Source of the DNA: Calditrichaceae bacterium
GTDB taxonomy: Bacteria; Calditrichota; Calditrichia; Calditrichales; Calditrichaceae
DNA: 13,788 nt
Direction: 5' to 3'
NCBI GenBank assembly: GCA_030622395.1
Contig: JAUXGF010000012.1
Coordinates: 1-13,788 of the forward strand
Below the pieces are notes generated by a model that was not told the DNA's origin, made no database searches, and saw nothing but the letters and a program-made list of their open reading frames with translations. Positions 1-12,843 of this stretch are shown here, piece after piece (the first letter of the stretch is position 1; every line of letters starts with the position of its first letter). Position numbers and translations under genes: made by a program.

Positions 1-60
1 CACGAAGACACAAAGACACTAAGAAATAATTAATTTTTAAATACTTAGAGCCTTTGTGGC
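1..60. repeat. octamer-type inverted-repeat element, copy 1 (left end may continue outside the window)
   Basis: The left part is a degenerate 8-bp tandem (CACGAAGA, CACAAAGA, CACTAAGA). Positions 9-23 (CACAAAGACACTAAG) match the reverse complement of 44-58 at 12 of 15 positions, so the element is an imperfect inverted repeat around an AT-rich centre. The 28 nt at 28-55 recur exactly at 10611-10638. It opens a 498-bp gene-free region at the left edge made almost entirely of repeats: this element, hairpin modules at 95-116 and 133-158, a heptamer array at 267-371 and GC-rich hairpins at 377-398 and 475-491. I see no gene in 1-498. Confidence 0.75.
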
Positions 61-84
61 TACTATTTTGAAAGGTCACTTTAA

Positions 85-176
85 CTTACCCCTCTAATCC
101 CGAATTTTCGGGACTTTTGGATCAAATCTTTCCCCTTCCCTATTGTATTAGGGAAGGGTTAGGGATGGGTAAGAAA
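85..176. repeat. two hairpin repeat modules (CTAATCCC type and CCCTTCCCT type), copy 1
   Basis: Module one is 95-116; it contains CCCGAATTTTCGGG (stem CCCGAA/TTCGGG) and recurs identically at 10776-10797. Module two is 133-158, a 10-bp perfect stem (CCCTTCCCTA, loop TTGTAT, TAGGGAAGGG), followed by TTAGGGATGGGTAAG; it recurs at 10902-10940 with a slightly different loop. Both resemble the larger inverted-repeat family seen at 12695-12843. Confidence 0.75.
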
Positions 177-6538: not shown

Positions 6539-6587
6539 TGACGCCTGACGCTTGATACTGGATACTGGATACTGGATACTGGATATA
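6539..6587. repeat. heptamer tandem array, GATACTG family (7 units)
   Basis: In strict 7-bp steps: TGACGCC, TGACGCT, TGATACT, three GGATACT and GGATATA. It lies 30 bp upstream of the UDP-HexNAc dehydrogenase start. The same heptamer appears in reverse orientation at 5084-5104 and 12877-12904. Confidence 0.88.
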
Positions 6588-6661: not shown

Positions 6662-6728
6662 ACCCACCCCTGCTTGCATCCCGACACTTCGGGGTAACCC
6701 CTCCCAAGAGGAGAATAAGCAATTCCCC
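6662..6728. repeat. CCCCTAACCCC-type element carrying a 24-bp insert, right arm lost
   Basis: ACCCACCCC (6662-6670) and TAACCCCTCCCAAGAGG... (6695-6728) match the continuous left arm, loop and start of right arm of the palindrome at 12777-12819, with few differences. Positions 6671-6694 are extra; read in reverse they end TCGGGATGCAAGCA, and the same segment occupies the same site at 10854-10874. After ATTCCCC the expected rest of the right arm is missing. Confidence 0.75.
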
Positions 6729-10556: not shown

Positions 10557-10589
10557 TCTTTTTCTAAAATGTTTATATGAAAGTAGAAT

Positions 10590-10691
10590 GCCACTAAGAC
10601 ACGAAGAAACAATTAATTTTTAAATACTTAGAGCCTTTTTCCAAAGGGATCCCTTTCCCAAGGGGACTCCTGCGGAGCGGGAGTGGCTACT
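10590..10691. repeat. octamer-type inverted-repeat element, copy 2, split by a 44-bp insert
   Basis: CACTAAGA CACGAAGA, then 28 nt (10611-10638) identical to 28-55. In copy 1 the sequence continues directly to GTGGCTACT (56-64); here GTGGCTACT resumes at 10683-10691, after 44 extra bases (10639-10682). The insert holds a perfect palindrome AAAGGGATCCCTTT (10643-10656) and GGGGACTCCTGCGGAG. The whole gene-free stretch 10505-11162 consists of this element, the hairpin elements at 10725-10948 and a heptamer array; I see no gene in it. Confidence 0.8.
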
Positions 10692-10724
10692 TTCATTGTT
10701 TATTGCGTTCGACAGAACATGATA

Positions 10725-10800: not shown

Positions 10801-10883
10801 ATTCCCCTCTTGTTGAAGCGAAGCGGAAATCCCGATGTCGGGAGGAGGGGTTACCCCGTATCGGGATGCAAGCAGGGGTGGGT
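10801..10883. repeat. right half of the CCCCTAACCCC palindrome with two inserts
   Basis: ATTCCCCTCTTG (10801-10812), GGAGGGGTTA (10844-10853) and GGGGTGGGT (10875-10883) together reproduce the uninterrupted right arm at 12813-12843, with one difference. Between them lie a 31-bp segment (10813-10843, ending in the hairpin TCCCGATGTCGGGA) and a 21-bp segment (10854-10874, ending TCGGGATGCAAGCA). Confidence 0.78.
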
Positions 10884-10901: not shown

Positions 10902-10948
10902 CCCTTCCCTGTTATATTAGGGAAGGGTTAGGGATGGGTAAAGAAAAA
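10902..10948. repeat. CCCTTCCCT hairpin module, copy 2
   Basis: Stem CCCTTCCCT / AGGGAAGGG (10902-10910 with 10919-10927), loop of 8, followed by TTAGGGATGGGTAAAG. It matches 133-176 apart from the loop and one base. It follows the other shared modules in the same order as at the left end of the window. Confidence 0.75.
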
Positions 10949-11058: not shown

Positions 11059-11100
11059 ATTCCTAATTCCCAATTCCTACTTCCTACTTCCTACTTCCCA
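11059..11100. repeat. heptamer tandem array, CTTCCTA family (6 units)
   Basis: Units in strict 7-bp steps: ATTCCTA, ATTCCCA, ATTCCTA, CTTCCTA, CTTCCTA, CTTCCCA, then decaying copies to about 11114. It has the same orientation and similar unit order as 267-371 and 1980-2028. It lies 62 bp downstream of the phosphatase stop codon. Confidence 0.88.
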
Positions 11101-12776: not shown

Positions 12777-12843
12777 ACTCACCCCTAACCCCTCCCAAGA
12801 GGGGAATAAGCAATTCCCCTCTTGGGAGGGGTTAGGGGTGAGT
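12777..12843. repeat. perfect 31-bp inverted repeat (CCCCTAACCCC type) with flanking T-runs
   Basis: Arms 12777-12807 and 12813-12843 are exact reverse complements (ACTCACCCCTAACCCC... against ...GGGGTTAGGGGTGAGT) around a 5-nt loop AAGCA. On the minus strand the hairpin is followed within 3 nt by TTTTT; on the plus strand TTTTT follows within 6 nt. It lies 97 bp past the ftsK stop, so it could act as a bidirectional intrinsic terminator between ftsK and lolA. It is also the intact reference copy for the interrupted elements at 6662-6728 and 10801-10883. Confidence 0.88.

Follow-up and report, generated by a model that had tools for sequence, protein, structure and literature searches.

A 21- to 25-nt hairpin-plus-tail element nested within other repeats of a Calditrichaceae genome may be among the smallest mobile elements

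In the window analyzed here (the whole 13,788-nt stretch from a Calditrichaceae bacterium), two copies of one palindromic repeat are interrupted by a short GC-rich segment, which raises the question of whether this segment travels as a unit in its own right or is a variant of the repeat that carries it. A preliminary description of the window had proposed a tiny mobile or gene-converted element on the grounds that the same segment occupies the same site in two repeat copies and that an empty site is also present. Both observations hold. The segment, CCCCGAnnnnTCGGGATGCAAGCA, consists of a hairpin and a fixed tail and measures 21 to 25 nt. Read directly from the sequence, the first insert is 21 nt long (CCCCGTATCGGGATGCAAGCA; 10854-10874, +), ends in the tail ATGCAAGCA, and lies between GGAGGGGTTA (10844-10853, +) and GGGGTGGGT (10875-10883, +). 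The second is a 24-nt version (CCCCGAAGTGTCGGGATGCAAGCA; 6671-6694, -) flanked by GGGAGGGGTTA and GGGGTGGGTC, with an identical insertion point. Both are intergenic and lie in a polysaccharide-type gene cluster. Their host, which we call host (a), is represented by three copies: one at 10801-10883 (+), with the 21-nt element and a layout (C-run, loop, G-run, TTA, G-run) that by eye is intrastrand-triplex-like in the sense of the accessible text of PMC4666352; one at 6662-6728 (-), with the 24-nt element (repeat family D8, inverted pairs I2 and I5); and an intact palindrome at 12777-12843 (inverted pair I3, 31-nt arms, 100%). The intact palindrome holds two empty sites, one in each arm (12834/12835, +; 12785/12786, -). 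The empty partner of the 24-nt insert is found in L044 (1428-1485), at 94.8% over 58 bp with 0 gaps.

Two uninterrupted relatives had also been pointed out. The first is correctly placed at 151-170 (+); the second, given as 10919-10938, was off by one and occupies 10920-10939 (+; repeat family D5). Both read GGGAAGGGTTAGGGATGGGT and belong to host (b), GGGAAGGGTTA^GGGATGGGT, with empty sites at 161/162 and 10930/10931, respectively; filled copies of (b) occur elsewhere (L027, L029, L050, and others). The preliminary description did not mention a third repeat family, host (c) (CACGAAGACAC^AAAGACACTAAG...), whose copy at 1-64 (+) has an empty site at about 11/12 and which has 11 filled copies plus one chimera (L006) in the genome. 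A second (c) copy (10577-10696, +; repeat family D2) is split by another micro-insert, a hairpin-rich segment of 44 nt (10638-10681, +) whose boundaries, between GAGCCTT and AGTGGCTAC, were read from the sequence; its empty counterparts are near 48-63 of the window and near 7435 of L231. Also unmentioned was a second micro-insert of 31 nt at the apex of the (a) copy at 10801-10883 (10813-10843, +; CCCCTCTTG^GGAGGGG), which ends in a CCCGATGTCGGG hairpin and resembles an insert in (a) copies L002, L014, L015, and L017. This (a) copy is thus doubly nested, with the 31-nt apex insert and the 21-nt element. Searched against Rfam, the window gave no match at gathering scores. It also contains tandem 7-nt arrays of the TACTTCC/ACTTCTT and GATACTG types (285-370, 1990-2030, 6554-6582, and 11060-11100), which recall the heptamer repeats of cyanobacteria.

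A count across the source genome (G000, 3.05 Mb), which the preliminary description had proposed, yielded 48 copies of the 13-nt core CGGGATGCAAGCA (23 forward and 25 reverse) and 0 copies of the core read backwards; the core is therefore not a chance sequence. A stricter pattern, CCCCGN{2,6}TCGGGATGCAAGCA, gave 38 matches. Since only two of the 48 copies fall in a stop-to-stop frame of at least 150 aa, and four in a frame of at least 100 aa, copies in this genome are mainly intergenic. The element is composed of a hairpin (CCCGA, a loop that varies in both length and sequence, and TCGGG) and then the fixed tail, the constancy of the right arm and tail being partly by construction, as the search pattern fixes them. 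The left arm is noncomplementary only in L002 and in two truncated L021 copies (47 of the 48 copies, by eye). Modeled as single-stranded DNA, five forms fold into a hairpin of 4 to 5 bp that leaves the tail free, at -3.1 to -5.0 kcal/mol and z of -1.3 to -3.0, the copy at 10854-10874 giving a hairpin of -3.1 kcal/mol (z of -1.3). Diverged copies are scarce: 334 kb of contigs chosen for having no exact copy contained one with a single mismatch (L222) and four weak matches, compared with 1, 1, and 0 matches in shuffles of the whole 348-kb set. Given this near-uniformity, the family is probably young in G000.

The element splits at least two host repeats in this genome and probably three, namely, (a), GGGAGGGGTTA^GGGGTGGGT; (b), AGGGAAGGGTTA^GGGATGGGT; and (c), GCCACGAAGACAC^AAAGACACGAAG, where ^ marks the insertion point. 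Hosts (a) and (b) have a common layout (C-rich stem, loop, G-rich stem, TTA, G-rich stem) with the element after TTA or a variant of it, and hosts (a) and (c) have no visible sequence in common apart from the element. When the element is excised, 31 of the 48 copies align across the junction to element-free sequence (at least 12 nt on each side, among loci sampled from the genome). The best pair is L143 (filled) and L237 (empty), at 97.4% over 116 bp without a gap; for a few copies (L002, L013, L019, and the window copy at 10854) the partner is only approximate, and the remaining 17 have none in the partial genome sequence searched. By right flank, 27 copies are of the (a) class, 9 are of the (b) class, and 12 are of the (c) class. 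Ten of the 12 (c) copies have the loop GATTAAT, which occurs in 0 of the 36 (a) and (b) copies; of the other two, one has GATAATC and one is a chimera. Because loop type follows host family, most G000 copies look, from their sequences, like the product of a few founding insertions that then spread with the host repeats, and they need not be independent insertions. Two chimeras switch hosts at the element: in L006 the left half is of host (b) and the right half of host (c), and in L142 they are of hosts (a) and (b), respectively. For this reason the element seems to act in addition as a place of exchange between host repeats. The gene conversion half of the original proposal thus holds for G000. 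Four further copies (L009, L028, and both in L021) resemble (a) on the right, and on the left they are unrelated to it or truncated.

The junctions themselves are clean. Once the element is removed, the sites join without added bases, except for 1 to 3 nt of variation on the 5′ side in host (c), and excised filled sites compared with empty ones (e.g., L143/L237) revealed no target duplication. Clustering of 131 instances (some loci being counted twice beforehand, and copies less than 50 bp from a locus end being dropped) left 34 flanking contexts, or 28 after the removal of 6 near-duplicates; many independent flanks had been named beforehand as support for mobility. Across the 28 contexts, the six right-flank bases nearest the element agree with the element's own tail, CAAGCA, at 2.71 of 6 positions against a background of 1.55. 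CAAGCA ranks 8th of 4,096 hexamers, two of the seven higher words being one base different from it, and leaving out the self-nested context gives 2.59, the highest value at offsets of more than 7 nt being 2.04. This comparison is post hoc, having been devised once the flanks had been seen. The resemblance of the downstream flank to the tail would represent a possible target rule. No clear motif emerged from the left flanks of the clustered contexts. Targeting to hairpin apexes or loops, which had seemed true by eye, was unsupported (P values of 0.40, 0.36, and 0.09).

The search of close relatives, also proposed earlier, found the strict pattern in 3 of 146 genomes around G000 (itself included), all within the 15 genomes G000 to G014 of one family group. 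A scan of an 84,980-species collection returned at least 80 stretches from at least 26 genomes, with about 9 chance matches in 257 Gb estimated for this pattern under uniform base composition. In a recount of 24 of these genomes, the uncultured CAKZYZ genome had 25 copies, four Poribacteria genomes had 12, 9, 6, and 2, Bacteroidales SUG649 had 5, and Euphemobacter (phylum Auribacterota) had 2; the other 17, including a fifth Poribacteria genome, had one copy each, and the reversed control had none in the 24. Five loci (L054, L060, L089, L110, and L127) were excluded as probably being chance hits or matches to conserved coding sequence, and a doubtful one from Deltaproteobacteria (L129) was left out of the empty-partner count and kept in the context clustering. 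The other 20 carrier genomes belong to the Calditrichota, Poribacteria, Bacteroidota, Cloacimonadota, Planctomycetota, and Auribacterota, together with the CAKZYZ genome. A viral-contig scan gave 0 stretches, so that no vector was found there and a phage vector was dropped from consideration.

The surroundings of the element differ from lineage to lineage and from genome to genome, and the contrast of filled and empty sites extends to these genomes: 45 of 75 copies have an element-free partner (at least 9 nt on either side and agreement in 15 of the 19 columns at the junction, the five Poribacteria genomes being pooled), several of the matches being short and weak. The strong pairs are L109 and L076 (137 bp; E, 4e-28), L117 and L128 (E, 3e-36), and L062 and L069 (E, 8e-48). 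Twelve copies from Bacteroidales, Euphemobacter, Planctomycetota, G014, and the fifth Poribacteria genome had no empty partner in the little sequence searched. The element also nests in its own kind: in L071, L098, L119 (CAKZYZ), and L123 (Euphemobacter), a copy sits within another hairpin-plus-tail at GGGATG^CAAGCA, and un-nested relatives of the L071 and L098 host copies are found in L084 and L115. In Bacteroidales, it lies inside another short hairpin (L061, L080, and L101), and L285 has it directly at apparently the same outer site. A sister form shares the hairpin core and ends in the tail ATGTACCA; Poribacteria genomes G147 and G148 contain 20 and 18 copies of its core (L289-L309). The sister form stands at a CCCCCTAAATCCC^CTTATCAGGGGG repeat in 12 of 15 Poribacteria rows inspected, and in L117 it is the ATGCAAGCA form that stands at this repeat. 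Because the sister form and other hairpin inserts occur, the element is one of several such small units.

Some copies lie within proteins. In L101, the element is in frame in a WbqC-family gene, and we compared the best 120 of 3,850 homologs as protein sequences only. P0003 is without exactly the eight residues of P0001 (180 of 194 aligned residues are identical); P0019 carries SLHPDLSG where P0018, P0022, and P0033 have nothing (P0019 and P0018 are identical at 180 of 193); and P0004 carries LACRSIGE, by eye a diverged form, where P0002 has nothing (176 of 186). In these three pairs, one protein thus has a single 8-residue block that the other lacks, in each case in the same N-terminal region, one prone to insertions, and the variation, seen at the protein level only, would be of the kind that had been named as evidence for mobility. 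The blocks would fit the element; a peptide motif test on the same best 120 homologs flags only P0001 and P0019. Lined up as P0002, P0003, and P0001, three of the proteins differ by one 8-residue step and then another at a single point, and the linker looks like a natural record of what may have been stepwise nesting. Across P0001 to P0033 (some named Paludibacteraceae), the variable linker before QIEVMESFPKQTYRNRC gathers different short insertions. Sixty other genomes, relatives of that carrying L101, had no element-type match, and filled forms are therefore rare there. Among homologs of the Cloacimonadota protein in L087, CLHPDSSG occurs at one fixed point in 5 of 117 readable sorting-domain tails, a distribution that may have arisen by recombination among similar tails. 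In Poribacteria, the element is found in four related ORFs (L056, L091, L103, and L128); in the linker proteins concerned, its peptide was detected by the motif test in 0 of 120 listed homologs, with no close filled/empty pair.

What, then, is the element? We consider it fairly probable that it is a nonautonomous mobile micro-element of 21 to 25 nt, a hairpin plus tail moved by an enzyme supplied in trans, because its constant ends occur in many unrelated sequences and in several phyla, element-free sites exist, and it nests in itself. It might instead be a repeat subfamily that arose by one or two insertions and was multiplied thereafter only by gene conversion and duplication of the host repeats. 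The correspondence between loop and host family in G000, the two chimeras, and the TTA^GGG insertion point common to (a) and (b) are what this account would predict. We nevertheless judge it unlikely as a full explanation, given hosts (a) and (c) with nothing visible in common besides the element, surroundings that differ across six phyla, 8-residue blocks placed at more than one point within a protein family, and self-nesting. The preliminary description had reserved the subfamily reading for a segment confined to copies of one palindrome and descended from one duplicated ancestor. That situation does not apply here: the element also splits an unrelated CCACGAAGACAC repeat and, outside this genome, lies within many different sequences of other phyla. 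It is very unlikely, in our estimate, that no dedicated enzyme is involved and that hairpins stall replication, short template switches paste hairpin pieces into hairpin-rich repeats, and selection retains the pieces that fall in loops and linkers. Short insertions are indeed many and diverse rather than of one family: 24 places in 348 kb have insertions of 14 to 70 nt between repeat copies, one being the element (L222) and many being other hairpins. Hosts (a) and (b) likewise resemble triplex motifs linked to instability in the accessible text of PMC4666352. Template switching, however, sits poorly with constant ends (CCCC...GCA) in unrelated hosts and phyla, and the loop preference was not significant. 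In several contigs (L208, L221, L231, and L238), a segment of about 50 nt lies between ATTCCGGCAGGC and CATTTCAGGCAATGTCG.

As for the enzyme, the size, hairpin, and unpaired tail are reminiscent of a REP-type element moved by RAYT (a Y1 HUH transposase), and Y1 matches are present in G000 (4), in the CAKZYZ genome, G146 (18), and in Poribacteria genomes G147 to G150 (3 to 7). This assignment is nonetheless quite unlikely: the inspected copies have no GTAG or CGTC tag; Y1 was found in 32 of 36 genomes, element-free ones included; it was not found in carriers G151 (5 copies) and G162; and among the first 37 listed relatives of G162, 22 had no Y1, 14 had weak matches only, and 1 had a strong match. 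At 12 Y1 loci inspected (5 from element-free genomes, one from G000, none from G146), no full element lies alongside the gene, although a related hairpin is present at one of them. Y1/RAYT was rejected as the driver, as its presence does not track the carriers. In G146, with its 25 copies, several of the Y1-like matches lie in reading frames close to 340 aa long. Insertion through RNA, in which a group II intron or a retron-like reverse transcriptase acts on structured transcripts, has been proposed for yeast mitochondrial GC clusters (PMC4478555, in its accessible part), and reverse transcriptase matches occur in G146 to G150. We regard it as extremely improbable here, there being no RVT_1 match in G000 (76.6% complete, so that absences in it are not final), G151, or G152. 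The IS91-type Y2 domain (PF04986) likewise had 0 matches in G000 and G146 to G151, which include carriers with at least 5 copies, and is present in low-copy-number carriers G152 and G160 and weakly in G159. The IS91 transposase and reverse transcriptase, neither found in G000 or G151, were set aside as drivers.

Returning to the mobile micro-element, its variable-loop hairpin, constant tail, lack of target duplication, and target resembling its own end match the traces expected of an HUH-type mechanism. An enzyme recognizing hairpin and tail would copy the element in the form of a folded single strand and would join it 5′ of a tail-like target, following the logic of HUH single-strand transposases. 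Once inside a host repeat, it could be amplified with that repeat and through recombination between repeat copies, and passage between phyla would presumably occur by horizontal transfer. More tentatively, and with greater doubt than confidence, we suggest a class of transposons of about 24 nt in uncultured bacteria whose own 3′ tail directs target choice, which insert stepwise into each other, place 8-codon blocks in coding linkers, pass between phyla, and use an undescribed single-strand enzyme. If this is true, they would rank with the smallest mobile elements on record. Ever since the first descriptions of small dispersed repeats in cyanobacteria and of GC clusters in mitochondria, it has been an open question how DNA pieces of 20 to 30 nt spread as units; a 24-nt unit that is defined, occurs in several phyla with both filled and empty sites, and has a possible target rule makes the question testable by a plasmid assay, and the element suggests a route by which 8-codon blocks may enter proteins. 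In the literature searched, most subscription papers being outside its scope, searches by sequence, for nested hairpin repeats, and for repeats in these phyla listed no report of the element.

Several known systems invite comparison. The single-strand transposons IS91 and IS200/IS605 have a hairpin near an end and make no target duplication, and IS91 abuts a CAAG or GAAC target. The element has a hairpin and no target duplication in common with them and differs in being far shorter, with no autonomous partner found and no IS91 transposase in carriers of at least 5 copies. Rickettsia palindromic elements, known from genes of Rickettsia and relatives, are likewise palindromic repeats inserted in frame in proteins and are several times longer. 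Unlike a MITE, the element has two different ends (no terminal inverted repeats) and no target site duplication. The intrastrand triplex motif TM_ECO, with a 3-nt loop of which TTA is one form in the accessible text of PMC4666352, is relevant to hosts (a) and (b) and not to the element; by eye they have its layout (C-rich stem, loop, G-rich stem, 3-nt loop, G-rich stem), although their stems miss the strict consensus given there. REP/REPIN sequences with RAYT, as far as the accessible part of PMC3733652 describes them, form GTAG and CGTC families and have a 20- to 40-nt palindrome with an unpaired end. The element resembles these in its palindrome of that size range, its many copies, its intergenic and sometimes intragenic position, and its patchy occurrence over phyla and is unlike them in its precise nesting with empty sites, its lack of either tag on both strands (by eye), and the inconsistent association with Y1.

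The closest known kinds are the small dispersed repeats (SDRs) of cyanobacteria and the GC clusters of yeast mitochondria. SDRs were reportedly described in filamentous cyanobacteria by Elhai et al. in 2008. They are dispersed repeats of about 20 to 27 nt, possibly mobile by an unknown mechanism, that are discussed in PMC4390886 and PMC2884548; SDR5 is inserted inside HIP1, a precise insertion within another repeat (PMC4390886). The preliminary description had likened the nesting in the window to SDRs, and the element does agree with them, as compared by description, in size (within about 21 to 27 nt), dispersal, and precise nesting with empty sites. GC clusters such as GC42 (PMC4478555, accessible part) are tiny GC-rich hairpins, and with them and with double-hairpin elements of organelles the element has in common merging and shuffling, loops that change more than stems, and, presumably, horizontal transfer, whereas it resides in bacterial chromosomes, shows no target duplication, and is 21 to 25 nt rather than 42 nt long. 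Its hairpin with a fixed tail also separates it from the SDRs as so described. It is best filed as SDR-like in size and nesting, yet new in spanning several noncyanobacterial phyla, nesting in itself, lying in frame in genes, and having a possible target rule.
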